Notes under the pieces: generated by a model
Databases searched by the model: none
The model's input: the letters and a program-made list of their open reading frames with translations, nothing else
What the model was told of the DNA's origin: nothing
Assembly (NCBI GenBank): GCA_013178155.1
Contig: JABLXH010000081.1
Location: 1-33,137 of the forward strand
Length of the DNA: 33,137 nt
Direction of reading: 5' to 3'
From: Armatimonadota bacterium
GTDB taxonomy: Bacteria > Armatimonadota > Zipacnadia > Zipacnadales > UBA11051
Shown: piece after piece, positions 2,051-25,255 of the stretch
How the letters are laid out: each line of letters starts with the position of its first letter
Numbering within the stretch: the first letter of the stretch is position 1
Translations under genes and position numbers: made by a program

Positions 2051-2758
2051 GTGCCCCAAGTGCTCATCGTGGATGACGACCAGAGCGTGCGCGAACTGCT
2101 GCGCATGTACTTTGCGCGCGAGAACTTCGAGGTGCGGGAGGCGGCCACCGGTCCCGAAGCGCTTGAGGCCGCTGAAGCCAGCACCCCTGACCTGGTGGTT
2201 CTGGACATCATGCTGCCCGGGATGGACGGCTACGAGGTCTGCCGCGCCTTGCGCCAGCGCGGTGAGATTCCCATCATCTTCCTCACGGCCCGGGACGACG
2301 AGATCGAACCCATCGTGGGCCTGGAGCTGGGCGCTGACGACTACGTGACAAAGCCCTTCAACGCCCGGGAGGTGGTCGCGCGCGCCCGGGCGGTGCTGCG
2401 CCGTTCCCGTACCTCGACCGCTACGACGCCCCAGCAGGTCATTGATCACCCGGAGTTCCATCTTGATCCGGCCACCCGGGAGGTGCTGGTGCGGGGCAAG
2501 CCCGTCGCCCTCACCCCCCACGAGTTTGACATCATCCACTTGCTGGCCTCCAGGCCTCGCATCGTGCTGCCTCGCAAGGAGATCATGCAGACGGTCTGGG
2601 GCTACGATGCCGACTACGGGGACTACCGGACCGTGGACACCCACCTCAAGCGCGCGCGGCAGAAACTCAAGGATGCTGGCCTGACCGCCTGCCGCATTGA
2701 GACGGTGTGGGGGATCGGTTACCGCTTCGTAGTGGAGGGGAGCGAGGCGGGCTCCTGA
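2051..2758 (+). CDS. OmpR/PhoB-family response regulator
   Basis: A 235-residue regulator with an N-terminal receiver domain and a C-terminal winged helix. From the chosen start the acidic pocket is D8-D9, the phosphorylated Asp is D52 (VLDIMLPGMDG), the switch Thr is T79 and the conserved Lys is K101 (TKPF). Residues about 135-230 form the DNA-binding domain (EFDIIHLLASRP through the TVDTHLKRAR and IETVWGIGYRF motifs). The start is GTG 2051, with GGGGAGG 8 bases upstream; the earlier GTG at 2030 lies upstream of that site. The kinase partner starts 38 bases downstream, so the two form an operon. The pair resembles PhoBR or WalRK in layout; the regulon cannot be read from sequence. Confidence 0.93.
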   Translation: MPQVLIVDDDQSVRELLRMYFARENFEVREAATGPEALEAAEASTPDLVVLDIMLPGMDGYEVCRALRQRGEIPIIFLTARDDEIEPIVGLELGADDYVTKPFNAREVVARARAVLRRSRTSTATTPQQVIDHPEFHLDPATREVLVRGKPVALTPHEFDIIHLLASRPRIVLPRKEIMQTVWGYDADYGDYRTVDTHLKRARQKLKDAGLTACRIETVWGIGYRFVVEGSEAGS

Positions 2759-2796
2759 GCCGTCTCCCGCTTCTCTCCGGTCCGGGAGCCCAGGGC

Positions 2797-4614
2797 ATGC
2801 GCACACTCCTGGTCCGCCTCTCAATCAGCCACTTCCTGGTGGCGCTGGGTTCCCTCGCGCTGCTGCTTTGGCTGTCCCCGCGGCTGTTCCTGCACTATTA
2901 TCTGGTGGCGGAGCAGCAGCGCCTGTCGGTGGCCGTGCGCGGCCTGGCAGCCACCGCTGAGCGACTCGCCCAGTCCCCCGGCCGCGAAAACGACCTTGCC
3001 CTGCTGGTGCGGACCTCGGGCATCATGCTCGGCGGCGAGGTGGCCCTGATCGGTGGCGACGGCGATCGGGTGTTGCTGGCCAGCCACGGCAGCCCGGCCA
3101 CTGCAGGCTGGGCCCTGGCAGCCTGGGAGACCTATCGCCAGACGGGTCGCCCCCCTTCCATGCCCCTGGGCCAGGCCACGACGATTACCCTTGTGGCCCC
3201 AACGGGCCGGGCGAATCCCTTCGCGTCAGCCCTGGTCGTCCGCCATCGCGCTCCGGAGCTGCAGACCCTGCTGCGCGCCCATCGCCTCATGACCGCCGCC
3301 TCAGCGGCCATTGCCCTGGCCCTCGCGCTGATACTCTCACTGGTTGTCTCCCGGGCCGTGGCCTCTCCGCTGGTGGCCATGTCGCGGGCGGCCCAGCATC
3401 TCGCCGCCGGTGATTTCTCCGTCACGCTGCCCGAGCGTGGTCCGGCCGAGGTCACCAGCCTCGCTGCCAGTCTGAACCGGATGGCCAGTGCACTGGCCGC
3501 CACCTTCGCGGCTCTGGAAGGGGAGCGCCAGCGTCTTGCCGACGTCCTGGCCACCATGGGTGAGGGGGTCATCGGGTTGGACGCCGCGGGAAGGATCACT
3601 ATCGCCAACCGGGCCGCCAGCGAACTGCTTGGTCAGGACCTCCCCCCGGGCTCAGACCTGACAGGAGCGATCCCTGCCGAACAGGTGGCGCAGGCAGTGG
3701 CGGCCTTTGCGGCCGGTTCGCCTCTCAGTTTCGCCTTCAGCCGCGGTGACCGGTACCTGAGTTGCAGCCTCACGCCAGCAGCCGGTGGAGGCGCGGTGCT
3801 GGTAATGGCCGACATCACGGCCACCCGCCAACTGGAGAACATGCGGCGTGAGTTCGTGGCCGCTGTCTCTCATGAGCTTCGGGCGCCGCTTACCTCCATC
3901 CGGGGCTTCCTGGGCGCGATTCTCGACGGCACTGCCCGCGAGCCAGACGAACTCGACCACTGCATCCGGGTGGCGGACCAGGAGGCAGCCCGCATGGCAC
4001 GCCTCGTGGAGGAGTTGCTGGAGCTCTCGCGGCTTCAGGCCGGGGTCATGGAGTTTGAGTTCGCCCCGACCGACGTGGGTGACGTGGTGCGAGGGGTTGC
4101 CATTGCCTTTGCGCCACGGCTGGCGCAGACCGGCCTCCGTCTCGACCTGGACGTGGAAGAAGGCCTGCCGCTGGTGGAGGCCGATGGCGACCGGCTCGCC
4201 CAGGTTTTCACCAACCTGCTGGACAACGCGCTGCGGTATAGCCCGCCAGGGGGCGCACTGAGCATCCACTTGCGGCCAGTGACGCCCGCCGAACTGACTG
4301 AACTCCGCTTTGGGGAGACGCCGGTGTGCGAACTGTGTCTGCTGGGCAGCGTCCGCGACCAAGGACCAGGCATCGTTGAGACCGACCTGGGCCGTATCTG
4401 GGAGCGCTTCCACAAGTCCGACCGGGCCCGTACGCGGACTGACCCGGGGGCGGGTCTCGGGCTGGCCATTGTCCGCGAGATCATCCGGGCCCACGGCGGC
4501 GATGTCTTCGCCCGCAATCACCCGGCGGGCGGAGCAGAAGTCGGCTTCTGGCTGCCATTTGATGGGTCTTCCGCGGCTGCCGAGAGGCCTGAGGGCCGCC
4601 GGAATCAGTCGTAG
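2797..4614 (+). CDS. PAS-containing membrane sensor histidine kinase (PhoR/WalK-like)
   Basis: A 605-residue kinase. Transmembrane helix 1 is near residues 8-34, then about 130 extracytoplasmic residues, helix 2 near 164-188, and a HAMP linker. A PAS domain follows (DVLATMGEGVIGLD from 249). The HisKA domain has H359 in SHELRAPLTSIRGF. The ATPase domain has N-box NLLDNALRYSPPGG (N473, N477), DQGPGI and GAGLGLAIV. All catalytic motifs are intact. ATG 2797 is preceded by GGGAG at 8 bases; upstream in-frame starts overlap the regulator gene and would put hydrophilic residues before the first helix. It should autophosphorylate on H359 and pass phosphate to D52 of the upstream regulator. Its 3' end overlaps the convergent hydrolase gene by 10 bases. 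Confidence 0.93.
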   Translation: MRTLLVRLSISHFLVALGSLALLLWLSPRLFLHYYLVAEQQRLSVAVRGLAATAERLAQSPGRENDLALLVRTSGIMLGGEVALIGGDGDRVLLASHGSPATAGWALAAWETYRQTGRPPSMPLGQATTITLVAPTGRANPFASALVVRHRAPELQTLLRAHRLMTAASAAIALALALILSLVVSRAVASPLVAMSRAAQHLAAGDFSVTLPERGPAEVTSLAASLNRMASALAATFAALEGERQRLADVLATMGEGVIGLDAAGRITIANRAASELLGQDLPPGSDLTGAIPAEQVAQAVAAFAAGSPLSFAFSRGDRYLSCSLTPAAGGGAVLVMADITATRQLENMRREFVAAVSHELRAPLTSIRGFLGAILDGTAREPDELDHCIRVADQEAARMARLVEELLELSRLQAGVMEFEFAPTDVGDVVRGVAIAFAPRLAQTGLRLDLDVEEGLPLVEADGDRLAQVFTNLLDNALRYSPPGGALSIHLRPVTPAELTELRFGETPVCELCLLGSVRDQGPGIVETDLGRIWERFHKSDRARTRTDPGAGLGLAIVREIIRAHGGDVFARNHPAGGAEVGFWLPFDGSSAAAERPEGRRNQS

Positions 4615-7182: not shown

Positions 7183-7211
7183 TTGACAAACGCCGGGCGT
7201 TGTCTTAGTAT
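7183..7211 (+). promoter_or_regulatory. Sigma-70 promoter with operator-like palindrome in spacer
   Basis: TTGACA (7183-7188), a 17-base spacer and TAGTAT (7206-7211) form a near-consensus promoter for the CHASE2 kinase gene, with transcription expected near 7218. The spacer holds the perfect palindrome AACGCC-G-GGCGTT (7189-7201). Allowing one bulged A, the symmetry extends outward through GACA and TGTC. An operator at this place would block RNA polymerase, so repression is inferred. Confidence 0.75.
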
Positions 7212-7286
7212 GCTTTAGCGTGGCGAGCGGGGCGGGAATGCGCCTTCGTCGCCGGTGACGCGGCCATGGCGCAATGACTGGGGGCC

Positions 7287-9407
7287 ATGCCGGTGCATGC
7301 CATCTTCAAGGGCAGCCGGCGCCCCGGCGTCGGCCCACCAAAAGAGACTCCCGAAAGACCCCGCAGGGGGGTCGACCGCTTTCGTGTGTCGTGGTGTCGG
7401 CTGGTCCTGAGCAGTGTGGTGGTCAGCGCCGTCGTCTGTCGTCTAGCTCCTGTCCTGTCCCCCTCCGAGTTCCGTCTCCTTGACCACTGGTTGCGCTGGC
7501 GTCCGCCACGCCTGCCCGACGACCGCATCGTCATCGTGGCGATTGAGTCCCAGGACATCGAGGCGGCGCAGACTCATCGCGATTTCGCTTGCTCGTGCCT
7601 GGCGGTCTCTCGCGCCGACCTCGCCCGGGCGATCACGCGGCTGAAGCAGGCCGGAGCGATGGCCATCGGCCTGGACCTCAGGCTCGAGGTCGCCTGTCCA
7701 TACAAGCGCGGGACGCCGGCCGGGCATGACGACCAGTTGGCTCGCGCCCTGGACTTGCCGGGCGAGACGGTTCTGATCGCGGGGGCTCTGCCAACGCCCG
7801 AGCGGACCTTCTTCAGTCTGCCCCTAATCTGGTTCGTGGGCCGTCCGGGGAAGGAGCGACTGGTCGCCTCGCCGGAGGTAGACCGCCAGGGGGACATACG
7901 AGGTGTCTCCCTGATCCAGTACGGCGTACCGGTCCGCGGCAACCCTGATGAACCAGCGAGTGTGGAGCGCATCGGCCAGCAGTTCGCTCCGCTGTGTGTG
8001 GCGCTGCTGGGGGTCCTGCGTGGCCAGCCCGACGACCTGCCCAGCGCTGTTTCCCCCTACGAGGTCAGTTTCGCCGGCCAGACGATCCCGGTCCTGCCTT
8101 CGCGCCGCCTCAGCCTTGTCGAACTGGGCAGGCAAGATCCAACAGCCGGAAGGCACTCCATGCTGATCAACTGGGTGGGGCCCGTCGGGTCGTTCCCTAC
8201 CTACGCGCTCTCCAGCGTCCTGGAAGCTGACACGAAGGGCCTGCGGGAGCGCTATGGCGGCAAGGTGGTCCTGCTGGGGAGCCTGGCCGAGCGGTTCTTC
8301 ACGCCTATGAGCGGCCGGTCGGCGCAGCCTCGTCCGGGCTCTGTAAACCAGACGGCGGAAACCAGTCTCAGTGGCACCGAGATCCATGCCAACGCGCTCA
8401 ATACGCTCCTCACGGAGCGTTACCTGGTGACTGTGCCGCGCCCGCTTCAGGTAGTGCTGGTCTTCGTCCTGGCCTTCGTGGCGGCGTATGCTTTCCAGAC
8501 CTGGAGCGAGAAGGCAGCACTCGCCCTTGCCGGCGCCCTCCTGCTTGCTCTGGTGGTGGCGGCATATCTGCTGGCCTGCCATGACATCTGGCTGCCGGCC
8601 GCCATCCCGGCTGTGGCCTTCCTGAGCAGCGCGGTGGTCTCGGCCTTCTGGGGCTTTGCGCGGGTGCGACAGGAGGCCGAGAAACTGGCCGTGGAAATGG
8701 AGGTCCGGGACGCCGCCACGGAGACCGTGGTTCACGACCTCAAACAGCCCCTGGCGGCGATTGGTGCCCTGACTTCGGTACTGCGTCGCCGGCAGGAGCG
8801 AACAGCGGGTCCCTCGCAGGAGAGTCTGGAGGTGCTGGGGCATATTCAGCAGCAAGTAGATCGCGCCATCGGCGATATTGACGATCTTCTGGCCGCGACG
8901 CCCGGTCGCGAGGTCGGCCTGGTGCGGCAGCGCTTCGACCTGGTGGCCCTGGCACGCGAGACGGCTGAAGTCCAGCGCATGCGCAGCTCCTACCACGACG
9001 TCGAGATTGAGGCCCCGGAAGAACCCGTCTGGGTGCATGCTGACGTACGTTACATGAGCCGTGTGCTCAGCAATCTCGTGGACAACGCGCTGAAGTACTG
9101 GCCGGAGGGGGGAACCGTGCGGGTGGTCGTGCGACGGAACCCGCCGTGGGCGGAGGTCAGCGTCATAGACCACGGCCTGGGCATCAGCCCGGAGCAAAAG
9201 GACCGCATTTTCGCGCGATTCACCCGCTCGGTCCCCGCGGGGGCTAACATCCCAGGCAGCGGCATAGGACTTTACTCCGTGCACCGCATCGTGGATGCCC
9301 ATGGCGGCGAGGTGAGCGTCGAGAGCGAGGTGGGAGTGGGCTCAACGTTTGTCGTTCGCATCCCCTGCGCTGATGAGGCTGCGGAGGAAGATACAGGAGA
9401 CCGGTAG
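7287..9407 (+). CDS. CHASE2-domain sensor histidine kinase
   Basis: A 706-residue protein. One hydrophobic segment near residues 40-56 is followed by a large extracytoplasmic CHASE2 domain (about 62-378, beginning with the typical DDRIVIVAIESQDIE). Three closely spaced helices lie near 381-465, then the kinase region. H483 sits in VVHDLKQPLAAI; the ATPase domain has NLVDNALKYWPEGG, IDHGLGI and GSGIGLYSVHRIV. CHASE2 is a known extracellular sensor module fused to kinases or cyclases. No response regulator is adjacent, so it may signal to a distant partner. ATG 7287 is used; an in-frame GTG at 7293 is better spaced from the G-rich stretch at 7280-7284 and is possible. Its end is close to or overlaps the next gene, indicating translational coupling. 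Confidence 0.9.
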   Translation: MPVHAIFKGSRRPGVGPPKETPERPRRGVDRFRVSWCRLVLSSVVVSAVVCRLAPVLSPSEFRLLDHWLRWRPPRLPDDRIVIVAIESQDIEAAQTHRDFACSCLAVSRADLARAITRLKQAGAMAIGLDLRLEVACPYKRGTPAGHDDQLARALDLPGETVLIAGALPTPERTFFSLPLIWFVGRPGKERLVASPEVDRQGDIRGVSLIQYGVPVRGNPDEPASVERIGQQFAPLCVALLGVLRGQPDDLPSAVSPYEVSFAGQTIPVLPSRRLSLVELGRQDPTAGRHSMLINWVGPVGSFPTYALSSVLEADTKGLRERYGGKVVLLGSLAERFFTPMSGRSAQPRPGSVNQTAETSLSGTEIHANALNTLLTERYLVTVPRPLQVVLVFVLAFVAAYAFQTWSEKAALALAGALLLALVVAAYLLACHDIWLPAAIPAVAFLSSAVVSAFWGFARVRQEAEKLAVEMEVRDAATETVVHDLKQPLAAIGALTSVLRRRQERTAGPSQESLEVLGHIQQQVDRAIGDIDDLLAATPGREVGLVRQRFDLVALARETAEVQRMRSSYHDVEIEAPEEPVWVHADVRYMSRVLSNLVDNALKYWPEGGTVRVVVRRNPPWAEVSVIDHGLGISPEQKDRIFARFTRSVPAGANIPGSGIGLYSVHRIVDAHGGEVSVESEVGVGSTFVVRIPCADEAAEEDTGDR

Positions 9408-9409
9408 CG

Positions 9410-12400
9410 ATGTCTTTGAGCAGACTCCTATGTGCCTGCCTGCTGTCGCTGGCGCTTGGCAGACCGTCTCGGTGGCTGCGGCGCAAGGTCCCCGGGCCAC
9501 GTTGACCCGTGTGCGCGGGACCGTGCGCGTGATGCGGGCCAACACGCGGCAGTGGGCAACTGTGCGGCAGTCGCGCCAACTCCTGCTATATGCAGGGGAT
9601 CAGGTGCAGGCCCTGCAACGTTCGCGCGCGACCATCCTGGTGGACGGCGCCCGGGTCGAGCTGGAACCCGGGGCGCACATCACGATCACTGCTGCACGCG
9701 CCAACCGGACAGAGAGGGGTTACCTGTCACTACTGGCAGTCATGGGGCGGGTCTTCGTCTGGCTGGCCAGCTCGGCAGGGTTTGAGCTGGGGGCCGAAGG
9801 TGTGGTTGCTGGCGCCGGCGGTACGCAGTTTGTCTTTGAGGTCTCGGCCGAGGGAGTCACTACCGTAACCGTCCTCGAGGGCTCGGTGTACCTTTACAAC
9901 GACCTGGGTCGCGTCGTCATCCAGGCCGGTGAGCAGAGTCAGATCAGAAAAGACATTCCCCCCACGCGGCCGCGTCAGGTAGACGTCTCCGGGTACCTGG
10001 AGTGGGAGGGGACCCTGGAAAACCTCTGGCTTGGCTGGGAGACGCGTTACACCCCCGGCGCTACGCGTGAGGCCCTGCAACAGGCAGCGTCGGCTGCAGT
10101 ACAGGCCGCTGACCGGACCCCGACTGACACCACACTCCAGCTCCGGGCCGGTGAAGCACTGCAGGACCTAGGCGACCTCAAGGCTGCCGAGGAGCGCTAC
10201 CGCAAGGCACTGGAGAGCAGCGCCGGTGACCCGGCCGTCCTGCTGCACCTGGGCTACTGTCTCCTGGAGCTGGGCCTGCCCGATGAGGCCAACGCGACCT
10301 TTGCGCAGGCCCTCACCGCGGTGCCGGGCGAGCCGGAGGCCGAACTGGGCCAAGTGCTGGCGCTGATGGCATCGGGGGACCCGTCCCGCGTCGCCGAGGC
10401 GCGAGCCAGTTTGGGCCAGTTCGTCACCAGACATCCGGAACATGGGCGCGGACACCTGGCGGCGGCGCTGCTGGCGATCAGAAGCGGTGATGCCACGGGA
10501 GCGCAGACCGCTCTGGCTCAGGCCTTGCGCCTGGATCCAGGCAGCTACCATGCTCTGGCCTATCAGTCGGGGCTGGCGCTGGCACGCGGCGACGCCGCTG
10601 CCGCCCGCACCGCGGCTGAGCAGGCGGTGGCGGCGGCTCCGGCGTCGGCCCTCGCCCAGCAAAGCCTGGCGGCCGTCCTGTTTTACGCCGGTGACCTCGA
10701 GGGCGCCGCGGGAGCGGTGCGGACGGCGTTGGCGGCCAATCCCCTCTCTGCCATGGCGCATCTGCTGGCGGCGGACGTGGCTCTGGCGAGCGGAGACCTG
10801 GAAGGCGGCGCGGCCGAAGCGGAGATGAGCGTGGCGCTGGACCCCACCCTGGCTCCGGCGCTAAGCACGCTCGGCATGGCCCGCCTGGCCCGCAACGAGT
10901 TGCCCGCGGCCGAGAGTGCCTTTGCTCGCGCCCTCCAGGCGAGTCCGCAACTGGTTGCCGCGCAGACGGGCCTGGGCGCCACCTACCTGCGGCAAGGCCG
11001 GTTGGATGAGGCCCTGCGGGCCCAAGCTGCGGCTTTGGCCTGGGACCGCGACGCGGTATCCACGCATAATAACCTGGGTGCTGCCTACTTGGCGGCAGGG
11101 CGCCTGGAGGAGGCCTATGCTCAGTTCGCAGAGGCCATTCGTCTACAGCCCGACTCGGCCATCGCCCACGCCAACCTGGCCCTGGCTGCCCTGGAGTTGA
11201 ACCGCTTTGCGGAGGCCGTCGCCGAGGGCGAGAAGGCGGTACGTCTGGGTGACCGCTCAGCGCGCCTGCGCACCACGCTGGGCCGTGTCTACCTGAAGCA
11301 GAACCGGGTGCTGCAGGCCTGGGCGGTCCTGCGCCAGGCGCGGGAACTCGACCCGGACTATGCCCTGGCGGATCTGTATCTGGCCGAGGTCAACTCTCGC
11401 CTGGGCCGGTCCCGGGACGCGGTCCGTGAGACCTTGGTCGGCGTGTCGAAACAACCCTCGGCGGCGCTTGACGACCGCGAGTACGCGCGGACGATCGTCC
11501 GGGCGGCGGCGGGCGACGACACGCTGATTCGGGCGCGGACCGATGGCCGGGGGGCCCGCGGCCAAAACTCCTACTACCTGGCGGCCGAGCACCGCGAGTC
11601 CGACTGGGATGGGACCCACAGCGACTACCGTGAGACGACGGCACTGGGGATCGTCGGACGGCAGACGGCTTTCCAGCGCACTGACGTGCTGGTAGCGAGT
11701 GGACAGTGGGACAAGCGTGACCGGCCCGGGACCTCAGCGGCAGCGGGAACGGTCGGCGACGGGGATTACCACACGACCTTTCGGGGCGTCGATGCCCACT
11801 ACCTGGCCCGCCGGCCGGTCAGCGACGGTGTCGTGACTCTTCGCCTGGGCTACCGCGACACCGATTCCGACGACCACAACCCCGATAGCCTCGACCCCGA
11901 TCCGAAGCCTTACCGGCATATCTCGCTGGACTACCACGGACCCATGGTGGAGGTCCGCCTGGACCGCCCGAGCACGGGAGGTGCCAGGCTGGTGGCCGGC
12001 GCGGTGATCTCTGACCAAATCCGGCAAATCAGCGGCCTCATTGGCACGCGAAACCCGGCTGGCAGCGATCCGCCCGCCCGCTTTGTGCCCTTCGGCGACG
12101 ACCTGGACCGGCAGGTCGGTAGCTTCTACGTGGACTACGGCTGGCCGCTGGCTGACAAGACACGGCTTGTCCTGGGAACGCGAGGGGCGGTGGCGGACGA
12201 TATGAGTCCGGTCTGGCGGCCCCGCCTGACCTTGCGTCACGCCCTAGGCCCCGACAGCACGCTGCTCTTGCTCAGTTGGCCGGTTCTGAGTGACGATGTG
12301 AGCGAGATCTCACCCGTGGAGGAATGGGCGCTGGCTGACCCGCTGTCGCCCCTGGACCTGGCGCGAGGCGGCTACAGCCAGAGCCACGAGGCGCAGTACC

Positions 12401-12927
12401 AGCGGCTGACGCCGGGAAGATCGCTGGTCCGTGTGGGAGTGTTCCACCGCGACCTGCGGAACCTGCTGATTGATCTCGAGGACCCGGCTCGGTCGGCGGG
12501 AGTGGCGCCGACGGTGATCGGCTCGGGGTATGTGCGAGGCATCAAGCTGGAGGCGGAGCGGCGCCTGGGCCGTGACGTGACCGGAGGTCTGACGGTGGCC
12601 TGGCAGGACAGTCGCAACGACGCCACCGGCCGCGATCTGCCTTACCAGCCTGAGCTGACAGGCTCCCTGCGCCTGGATTACCTGAGCTACAGCGGCTGGC
12701 GAGGTGAGGTGGCAATGGACTGCGTTGGCCGCCGGTATTCGGACCCCGGAGCAACAGTGCGGCTGGACTCAACCCAGCTTTGGCGCCTGACACTGGCCAA
12801 GCAACACAGCATACAGGCAGACTTCTTTCTGACCATCCTGAACCTCTTTGACGAGGACACCGGGTTCTGGCGGGGCTACCCGGCCTCCGGCAGGAGAGTG
12901 AGTGGGGGGGTTGAGTACCGCTTCTAG
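9410..12927 (+). CDS. FecR-TPR-beta-barrel envelope protein, N-terminal frameshift
   Basis: The body is one long frame read from about 9458 to 12927 (roughly 1,160 residues). It holds a FecR domain at about 9500-9950 (VRGTVRV, AGDQVQ, ILVDGARVELEPG), a long run of TPRs at about 10050-11460, and a region of alternating polar/hydrophobic strands at about 11520-12927 ending in YRF. That ending is typical of outer-membrane barrels folded by BamA. The best start, ATG 9410 with AGGAGA 9 bases upstream, encodes a fine signal peptide (MSLSRLLCACLLSLAL), but that frame stops at 9503. The body frame lies one base back and supplies WQTVSVAAAQG, a plausible cleavage region. One extra T at 9456-9457 would join them. 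The in-frame ATGs at 9349 and 9430 lack a proper signal peptide. The gene is coupled to the CHASE2 kinase. Confidence 0.85.
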
Positions 12928-13141: not shown

Positions 13142-14140
13142 ATGAGACAAGCAGTTTTCCGCAGTTCATGCAGGGACATGGGGGCCGTACTGGCGGTGGT
13201 AACACTGCTGCCGGTCGTCTCGCTGGTGGCAGGTTGCTCTGGTGCCGGCGTGAGCGCCGCGGGTCTCAGTGGGGCGGAGGTCCAGACACTGGGCACAGAT
13301 CAGATGAGCGTTCTGGTGCTGGTGCGCGGCTGGCTGAAGGTCATGTTCCCTGAGCCCACTTCGGGAACGCCCCAGGTCGAGTTCGAGTGGCTGGACGACG
13401 GCTACAGGATGTACGGGGTCGATAGCCTGGGCCATCCTTTTGACTACTTCGGCGCCTGGGATGGCAGCGGCCACGGCACCTGGCAGACGGCTGACGGACA
13501 GCCGGTGTCGGGCTCCTGGGACGCCCCCACGGGCGACACCGTGCATGTGCAGCACATGCACTACGAGTACCCCGACATGACCCTGGAGTTCACCAGTGAG
13601 GTGGACTTCGGGAACATGGTAGGCAATCTCGCACCAACCACGTGGGAGGGCACCCAGACGATGCAGGACGGACGGGTGCTGGCGTTCCGTTGGCATAGCA
13701 ATGCGGCAGACACCCAGACGCTGCGCTTGGACTTGCCCGCCGCCGGCCTGCGACTGGAGATTGCAGTGCCTGTGGCCTTCGTGAAGGACTATGGCTTCTG
13801 GCCCCTGCCGGCCTCCAAGGTTCTGGGGACGGCGCAGGCTCCAAACGGAGCGTTGACGTTCACACTGAGCGGCACCAATGGTGTCTGGGAACGTCTGCGG
13901 GTGGCCAGGGGCCAGACCACCGGGACCTTTGTGCTGTCTGGCGAAATGGCCGGAGGGGGGCGATTTGAGGAGAACGGCCAGGTCAAGGCGGTCATGAACT
14001 GGCCCGAAAGCCTGGTGGCGCGGCTGGACCTGACGTCACTTGAGACTGTGGAGGTCACGCCGGTGGCCGCCGCGCGGGACCTCGCCATTGACCGGTGGAT
14101 CAGCAGCCTGGCCGCTTTGTCACCCATGTCGGTCCAGTAG
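13142..14140 (+). CDS. Predicted lipoprotein of unknown function
   Basis: A 332-residue protein that I do not assign to a family. The N-terminus has a charged region, a hydrophobic core and a lipobox SLVAGC with C32 as the lipidated residue, so it should be anchored in the membrane after export. The mature part is rich in short beta-like stretches with repeated Gly and Asp (for example around the DGSGHGTWQ segment near 13460-13500), suggesting a beta-sandwich or barrel-like repeat. ATG 13142 is chosen because it begins the signal peptide and has a GCAGGG stretch 7 bases upstream; the longer in-frame start at 13028 would add 38 hydrophilic residues before the signal. It follows the FecR-TPR-barrel gene and precedes a small beta protein by 23 bases. 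Confidence 0.75.
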   Translation: MRQAVFRSSCRDMGAVLAVVTLLPVVSLVAGCSGAGVSAAGLSGAEVQTLGTDQMSVLVLVRGWLKVMFPEPTSGTPQVEFEWLDDGYRMYGVDSLGHPFDYFGAWDGSGHGTWQTADGQPVSGSWDAPTGDTVHVQHMHYEYPDMTLEFTSEVDFGNMVGNLAPTTWEGTQTMQDGRVLAFRWHSNAADTQTLRLDLPAAGLRLEIAVPVAFVKDYGFWPLPASKVLGTAQAPNGALTFTLSGTNGVWERLRVARGQTTGTFVLSGEMAGGGRFEENGQVKAVMNWPESLVARLDLTSLETVEVTPVAAARDLAIDRWISSLAALSPMSVQ

Positions 14141-23704: not shown

Positions 23705-25255
23705 CTACGGGTGCTCCTCCCCAAAGACCTGAGCGGTGAACACTGAAAGCTGCGCGCCCCGTCGCCAGGCGTCCGCCGGCAGTCCGGCTTTGTCGGAGCA
23801 CAGGTGGTCAAGCATCGTCTCGCGGTCCCAGCCCTGCTCGGGCGCCACCTGGGGCAGAAAGACGCCCGAACGCCCGCCCTGCCGCACGATGACACCATGC
23901 TTACCGACGACGATCTCTTCCGGATCCTCGACAGGCCGAACCGGCGAAAGCACACTGATCTCCACCCGAATGCTCGGTAGCTCCGCGGCCTCCACGGGCC
24001 TGAACCGGGGGTCCTCCGTGGCCGCAGCGATGGCCATGTCCCGGACCGCCAGGTATATCGGTCCCCGAGGCTCCAGACCGCCGATGCACCCACGCAACTG
24101 CCCGTGGGCGGTCAGAGTGACGAAACACGCCCGCGGCTTGCGCAGGGCGGGGTCGTCGGTGTGCGGCTGAAAGCGCTTGCCGGTGCGGATCAGGGCATCC
24201 AGAGTCCGACGGGCGATGTGCAGGAGCTCTTCCTGCTGGTGGCGGCCCAGCTCTCCGGTGGTGTTGCCGGGGTCGGCCCCCGAAACTCCTGTCGGCGGAC
24301 TCTCAGGGCGGCAGAATGCGACCGCAGCGTAGCCAACGCTGCGGTCGGCGGTCTCGCGAACAACCTGTCCAGAGTTCGTGTAGTGCAGCCGAACAGCTCT
24401 TGAGGCTCCGAGTTCCTTGGCCGCGACCATGGAGACGGCCACCGGGGCCAGACCACAGAGCGTGCAAACCAGCCCTGGCACGCCACTGGCCAGCATCCGT
24501 TCCTGTTCGGTGAACAGGCGGTCAGCATCACCTGATAGCAGAGTCCTGAGGGTCGTCCCATCCACCTCTGCGCAGGCTTCCGTCGGCGGGTAGTGGGCGA
24601 GGTCGGTACTGGCGACAATCAGCGCTTTTCGTCCCTGCACCGCCGCGGCGAGGGCCTCGCCCAGCTTCCGACATTCCGCAGGCGAGGGGTCACCGAGGAC
24701 GATAGGAACGATGCGGAAGTCATCGAGAACGGTCTGCAGGAATGGGAGCTGGACTTCCAGGGAATGCTCTTCGGCATGGGCCAGCTCATCTTCCGCGTAC
24801 CCGGCCCTGCAGTCCAGAAGTGATGCGGCCAGGGCACGGTCAACAGGGACCTCGCCAAGCGGTGTCTGCCACGCCTCTGCGGGTGACAGTGCGGCACCGC
24901 GGACCGGCACCCGGTGGCTCGGTCCCAGTAAGACGATGGTGTCGTAGTGCCGTCCGACAAGCGTTCGATAGGCGTGGGCGGCGGTGGCGGCCGAGTACTC
25001 ATAGCCTGCATGCGGCACGATCAGGGCGACTGGCGGTCCGGGAAGCGTGACCGGCTTGGTGGCGGCCAGATGGCGGTCCACGGCCGACTGCAGTTCGGTG
25101 GCAGAAGCCGGGTAGAACTGGCCAGCAACGGCTGCCGATCGCACCCGCGGATGTGAACTGACAGCACGAGGGCGGGAAAGGTCTTCACGGCGCGGAGCAC
25201 AGGCCCCCGCCAGCAGAACCACGGTCAGCACCACAGCAGGCGCTAAGCGCGTCAT
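23705..25255 (-). CDS. Exported MEMO1-AMMECR1 fusion protein
   Basis: A 516-residue fusion of two domains usually encoded as separate AmmeMemoRadiSam proteins B and A. Residues 1-19 form a signal sequence ending in a relaxed lipobox (LLAGAC, C19), so it is probably exported and perhaps lipid-anchored. The MEMO domain (about 38-315) has H82, H114, H221 and C267, which by spacing match the metal-site residues of human MEMO1. The AMMECR1 domain (about 335-510) carries LRGCIGG from 387. MEMO proteins resemble LigB-type dioxygenases, and the bacterial function is unsettled. No radical SAM partner is in the window. ATG 25255 has GGAGG about 10 bases upstream. The gene lies 33 bases after moxR and is probably co-transcribed. 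Confidence 0.88.
   Translation of the reverse strand: MTRLAPAVVLTVVLLAGACAPRREDLSRPRAVSSHPRVRSAAVAGQFYPASATELQSAVDRHLAATKPVTLPGPPVALIVPHAGYEYSAATAAHAYRTLVGRHYDTIVLLGPSHRVPVRGAALSPAEAWQTPLGEVPVDRALAASLLDCRAGYAEDELAHAEEHSLEVQLPFLQTVLDDFRIVPIVLGDPSPAECRKLGEALAAAVQGRKALIVASTDLAHYPPTEACAEVDGTTLRTLLSGDADRLFTEQERMLASGVPGLVCTLCGLAPVAVSMVAAKELGASRAVRLHYTNSGQVVRETADRSVGYAAVAFCRPESPPTGVSGADPGNTTGELGRHQQEELLHIARRTLDALIRTGKRFQPHTDDPALRKPRACFVTLTAHGQLRGCIGGLEPRGPIYLAVRDMAIAAATEDPRFRPVEAAELPSIRVEISVLSPVRPVEDPEEIVVGKHGVIVRQGGRSGVFLPQVAPEQGWDRETMLDHLCSDKAGLPADAWRRGAQLSVFTAQVFGEEHP

Follow-up and report, generated by a model that had tools for sequence, protein, structure and literature searches.

An NsrA-like FecR-TPR-barrel protein beside a CHASE2 histidine kinase in Armatimonadota: a candidate transenvelope receptor

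NsrA, encoded on pSymB of Sinorhizobium meliloti, is a protein of 1200 aa in which Pfam finds a FecR domain at residues 66-160 and TPRs, and it adjoins CyaK, which joins CHASE2 to a cyclase. According to two reports, NsrA sits in the outer membrane as the receptor for those plant signals that raise cAMP by way of CHASE2 cyclases; published genetics show that signal perception by these cyclases requires NsrA, and residues 600-1200 form a barrel whose outer loops are acidic (PMC7529298, PMC13001267). The first report has NsrA responding to a proteinaceous plant signal and proposes that the acidic loops bind it (PMC7529298). What CHASE2 domains themselves sense is listed as unknown in a statement quoted in PMC5192318.

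The locus described here lies on contig JABLXH010000081.1 of an Armatimonadota bacterium (GCA_013178155.1), in a window of 33,137 nucleotides, by which we mean the whole stretch of DNA that was analyzed. It consists of a CHASE2 histidine kinase gene followed by a gene, called gene 2 below, for a one-piece FecR-TPR-barrel protein; this arrangement, proposed in an earlier note on the sequence, is confirmed by Pfam, a structural model, and PF04773 matches in relatives. Like NsrA with CyaK, CyaD1, and CyaD2, it places a FecR-TPR-barrel protein of about 1200 aa next to a CHASE2 transmembrane protein, with FecR on the N-terminal side, then the TPR array and a C-terminal barrel. The homology runs end to end (hhalign of NsrA against the gene 2 profile, Prob 99.9, E 3.7e-34, 1060 columns), and BLAST of NsrA against the window protein gives 31% over 165 aa in the barrel region (E 1e-9). 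The suggestion of the earlier note that the complete architecture may be undescribed therefore falls, given that NsrA is a FecR-TPR-barrel protein beside a CHASE2 cyclase and homologous along its length. The differences lie in the partner, which is a histidine kinase here and an adenylate cyclase with cAMP output there; in the gene order, nsrA preceding cyaK; in the phylum; in the paired CHASE2 domains, which are distant; and in a conserved lipoprotein, with none homologous annotated beside nsrA. Three of these features are new: the kinase branch, the phylum, and the conserved lipoprotein. The open-licence papers searched showed no CHASE2 kinase together with a barrel-FecR protein.

Other systems share parts of this layout. 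In cell-surface signaling by FecA, a 22-strand barrel works with FecR to pass a surface signal inward, and the barrel here, which shares that fold, would do so with its FecR domain as well. Unlike FecA-FecR-FecI, this locus has no plug, no TonB was found in the genome, FecR is fused to the barrel, and the receiver would be CHASE2 rather than a sigma factor, of which there is none among the window genes scanned. Slam, PgaA, and BcsC likewise have periplasmic TPRs and then an outer-membrane barrel, but they have export roles and no FecR, and their barrels belong to other families with other strand numbers (14 strands in Slam). The BiofilmReg operon of Burkholderia also has a FecR protein adjoining a CHASE2 histidine kinase; there, however, LysM takes the place of the TPR-barrel, no outer-membrane barrel is reported, and the operon includes a response regulator (PMC5192318). 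In the CHASE2 adenylate cyclase cluster of Campylobacterota, the CHASE2 protein comes with a FecR-domain outer-membrane protein and a TPR protein, but FecR and TPR are reported as separate proteins, and the cluster has a cyclase and phosphodiesterase and no kinase (PMC9239204).

The kinase and the barrel protein

The kinase (706 aa, positions 7287-9407, plus strand, like the other parts of the locus) is kept in relatives. Pfam places CHASE2 at aa 46-399 (PF05226, E 1e-27; 7422-8483), HisKA at 478-535 (PF00512, 2e-6), and HATPase_c at 586-694 (PF02518, 1e-25), the last two together spanning 8718-9368; with both, it is a histidine kinase of the two-component kind. Hydropathy marks transmembrane segments at 32-50, 380-398, 411-429, and 436-454, one before and three after CHASE2, and the CHASE2 domain they flank should therefore be periplasmic. 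A sigma-70-like promoter candidate, TTGACA-N17-TAGTAT, lies upstream at 7183-7211 (10/12 in a consensus scan, 0.1 expected by shuffling).

As the earlier note had observed, no response regulator adjoins this kinase in the window, and a scan of flanking genes in five relatives found no REC domain. The sole response regulator of the window (ORF 2030-2758, REC at 2060-2386) has a HAMP-PAS histidine kinase of its own right behind it at 2707-4614; this ordinary pair precedes the CHASE2 kinase by 2.7 kb. The host genome (assembly 5.53 Mb) has 41 REC domain matches.

Gene 2 directly follows the kinase gene on the same strand. As assembled, its frame runs from a TTG at 9349 to 12927 (1192 aa). This TTG sits within the kinase gene and yields no signal peptide. 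An ATG at 9410, 3 bases past the kinase stop codon, opens the signal peptide MSLSRLLCACLLSLALG (9410-9460) out of the gene 2 frame. Probably, then, the TTG start is wrong and the ATG at 9410 is the true one. In the complete relatives examined, a signal-peptide-like start is in frame with gene 2, which points to a frame break of one base near 9425-9460 in the assembled gene. The break stems from an error in the assembly or is a genuine mutation, which would stop export; with its frame broken near the start, the copy in the window may be nonfunctional.

The remainder of the protein was modeled with AlphaFold2 (window 9475-12924, a single chain with a 14-row alignment; mean pLDDT 78, pTM 0.65). 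The FecR domain is placed at 9496-9948: Pfam gives no FecR match in the window's own protein, PF04773 is matched by 12 of the 14 aligned relatives (best 2e-15), and the model has a beta domain at the aligned place. A predicted TPR superhelix of about 27 helices, or 13 to 14 repeats, follows at 10066-11469 (Pfam TPR, 1e-34), and the matches listed in a sequence search of solved structures are TPR proteins. The C-terminal part, 11491-12924, matches the TonB-dependent receptor barrel (PF00593, aa 756-1166, E 2.7e-14) and is modeled as a barrel of 22 strands; the barrel that had been supposed from the sequence, in a protein ending in YRF as reported, thus passed the structure-prediction test. Loop length alternates: the eleven odd loops are long, with up to 30 residues, and the ten even turns have 2 to 5 (p 0.001), the pattern expected of an outer-membrane barrel whose two ends both lie in the periplasm. 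The best Foldseek matches of the barrel are TonB-dependent receptors (Cir, E 1.7e-15, PqqU, PfeA, and BtuB), and structure comparison gives VIA at Z of about 22 over about 455 residues, again the TonB-dependent receptor fold. Between the last TPR helix, which stops at model residue 665, and the first strand, which starts at 673, a gap of 8 residues leaves no room for a plug domain. The outer loops are acidic (29 D/E versus 10 K/R) and no less conserved than the strands.

Conservation of the locus and its lipoprotein

A profile search across 291 Armatimonadota genomes (cutoff E < 1e-60) found relatives of gene 2 in 27; a degenerate search used a 9-row alignment, an 18-row one not being conserved enough, and a search of plasmids with gene 2 gave no match. 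Those relatives that carry a name are from MAGs of Armatimonadota, and several belong to Candidatus Zipacnadia; anoxic marine sediments are the source from which this class was described (PMC10290634). A CHASE2 protein lies directly upstream of gene 2 in 22 of the 26 loci with enough upstream sequence, so the two genes are indeed neighbors in relatives, as the proposal required. Loci in the clade of the window have a kinase as output (the window, L031-L040, and L052, with L053 in broken frames; at L031 the kinase end alone is visible, at a contig edge), and those of the other clade, the sister loci L044-L049 and L100-L102, have an adenylate/guanylate cyclase. At L041-L043, a protein with a C-terminal FlgD_ig domain stands upstream of the NsrA-like gene instead of CHASE2, with the lipoprotein still downstream; these genomes encode CHASE2 proteins elsewhere. 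The genome of L105 has no CHASE2 match. In the single-contig genome of L102/L103, an NsrA-like gene is cut within the barrel, as an inversion or a misassembly would leave it: its front part leads into a NIF3-domain reading frame, and the rear of the barrel is encoded on the opposite strand at a distance of about 650 kb, preceded by an FG-GAP protein.

A lipoprotein gene with the lipobox LVAGC (13142-14140) follows gene 2. Homologs adjoin gene 2 in most assessable relatives, directly downstream and with a conserved lipobox in 20 loci and upstream of the sensor in L048. The lipoprotein belongs to the system, as this conservation shows; its role is presumably that of an accessory to the barrel. 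It matched no Pfam or NCBIfam family, and a family search gave nothing credible. The model is mostly antiparallel beta (pLDDT 81). We do not regard it as an OspA homolog, Foldseek giving only weak OspA-like single-sheet matches (TM 0.2-0.3). A second copy of the family is present at the same locus in L040 (13473-14537) and in L068.

CHASE2 domains and FecR neighbors

The CHASE2 domains adjoining gene 2 form one clade (SH-aLRT 99), to which that of the window belongs, and kinase and cyclase outputs both fall inside it; the grouping of CHASE2 hence tracks the partner, not the output. The gene 2 tree has the same split. Fifteen other CHASE2 domains, 13 drawn from the Armatimonadota genomes searched and two from plasmids, all lie outside the clade. 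The CHASE2 domain of CyaK falls outside the paired clade, on a long branch.

More generally, in 12 Armatimonadota genomes, 32 of 49 FecR places are within 4 kb of a CHASE2 domain, compared to 0.4 expected, and 32 of 51 CHASE2 domains are within 4 kb of a FecR domain; the FecR place of the window was entered by hand in this count because Pfam misses it. The host has a second CHASE2 protein, with cyclase output (G000:C130, L050 4232-7355), followed directly by a FecR protein without a barrel, and a third (L051) with no FecR neighbor in the stretch fetched. On plasmids of Methyloprofundus (L055) and Ensifer (L056), CHASE2 cyclases adjoin stand-alone FecR proteins; the Ensifer plasmid also has a separate TPR gene, like gene 2 split up.

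Correlation of distances was examined by the Mantel approach and set aside. The overall r of 0.99 over 17 pairs is due to the kinase/cyclase split and shared ancestry. Within the kinase group, the CHASE2-FecR correlation went from r 0.68 (p 0.0004, n 7) to r 0.28 (p 0.16) once L039 was added and the domains were retrimmed, and we accordingly do not count it as evidence of contact.

Proposed signaling across the envelope and other readings

We think it fairly likely that the locus encodes an NsrA/CyaK-type transenvelope receptor whose output is a kinase, with a FecR/TPR arm signaling to CHASE2. The gene 2 product would be exported and its predicted plugless 22-strand barrel inserted into the outer membrane, where the conserved acidic outer loops may bind or monitor something at the surface. 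By the usual dimensions of TPR superhelices, 13 to 14 repeats together with FecR would extend over most of the periplasm. Judging from that length, the TPR rod and the N-terminal FecR could form a single rigid periplasmic arm that spans this space. We imagine that a surface signal changes the barrel and that the TPR rod hands this change to FecR; the FecR end, perhaps with the TPRs, would then contact CHASE2 of the adjacent kinase and set its activity, as the NsrA genetics, the gene pairing, and the tree suggest. The kinase may in turn phosphorylate an unlinked response regulator, for which the REC domains of the genome offer candidates. The lipoprotein, with its anchor in a membrane leaflet, would serve the barrel as an accessory, and the sister systems would have the same input wired to an adenylate/guanylate cyclase.

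Arguing for the transenvelope receptor are the position of the CHASE2 gene upstream of gene 2, the homology to NsrA and its layout and genetics, the single clade of paired CHASE2 domains, the linkage of FecR with CHASE2, the 22-strand barrel, and the lack of Plug and TonB_C matches in the host genome. Against it stand the FlgD_ig protein replacing CHASE2 in L041-L043, the frame break in gene 2, the failed correlation test, the CyaK domain outside the paired clade, and the single-chain nature of a model built from 14 sequences with a pTM of 0.65. The earlier note had a surface barrel reporting through FecR and TPR to the kinase, and this agrees with what genetics in S. meliloti has shown for NsrA and the CHASE2 cyclases (PMC7529298, PMC13001267); the physical complex is something we infer. 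That reading holds in part. It overlooked that a lipoprotein gene is conserved beside gene 2, that sister systems have a cyclase output, that plug and TonB are missing, and that the frame of gene 2 breaks near its start.

Gene 2 might alternatively be an export platform, a Slam-like TPR-barrel translocon bringing the lipoprotein (or, at L041-L043, the FlgD_ig protein) to the surface while the CHASE2 protein only monitors it. TPRs and a barrel do adjoin a conserved lipoprotein, the FlgD_ig protein neighbors the gene in three relatives, TPR_Slam matches, if weak, occur in 11 of 14 relatives, and the lipoprotein model has its weak OspA-like matches. The barrel, however, has 22 strands of the TonB-receptor type rather than the 14 of Slam, the TPR_Slam matches are a general TPR signal, NsrA acts as a signaling receptor, and no homologous lipoprotein is annotated beside NsrA; we consider export unlikely. 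We also find it improbable that the barrel, arm, and CHASE2 form a ligand-free chain gauging outer-membrane assembly or membrane spacing. Such an envelope-integrity sensor would fit outer loops conserved like the strands, which do not suggest a diversifying receptor, and a barrel needs outer-membrane assembly in any case, but NsrA answers a proteinaceous plant signal with acidic loops as the proposed binders (PMC7529298), and the loops are acidic here too. A TonB-type importer with FecA-like signaling on the side is largely refuted: the barrel has the fold of TonB-dependent receptors, but no plug separates it from the TPRs, the host genome (95.6% complete) has no Plug or TonB_C match, and FecR is fused to the barrel protein rather than being a separate anti-sigma protein, so that gene 2 has a TonB-receptor barrel without being a TonB-driven importer. 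That the two genes are chance neighbors without a functional link is scarcely credible, for although three relatives lack the CHASE2 neighbor, the pairing in 22 of 26 loci, the single clade of paired CHASE2 domains, and the general FecR-CHASE2 linkage refute it.

The transenvelope receptor lends itself to a wider proposal, which we put forward tentatively: CHASE2 may be a general reader of FecR-bearing envelope proteins, and here a TonB-receptor barrel, in a genome that gave no TonB match, may have lost its plug and become a pure signaling receptor with a built-in TPR-FecR arm and a dedicated lipoprotein, its input being rewired between kinase and cyclase in evolution. The lone NsrA/CyaK case would then become a cross-phylum hypothesis, in which a FecR-bearing partner is the direct input of many CHASE2 proteins, because 32 of 51 CHASE2 domains are near FecR and the barrel-paired ones form their own clade whatever the output. 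It would also be a case of a predicted TonB-receptor barrel that works with neither plug nor TonB and carries its periplasmic arm on the same polypeptide. Elsewhere in the window, positions 23705-25255 encode a single protein fusing Memo and AMMECR1 domains.
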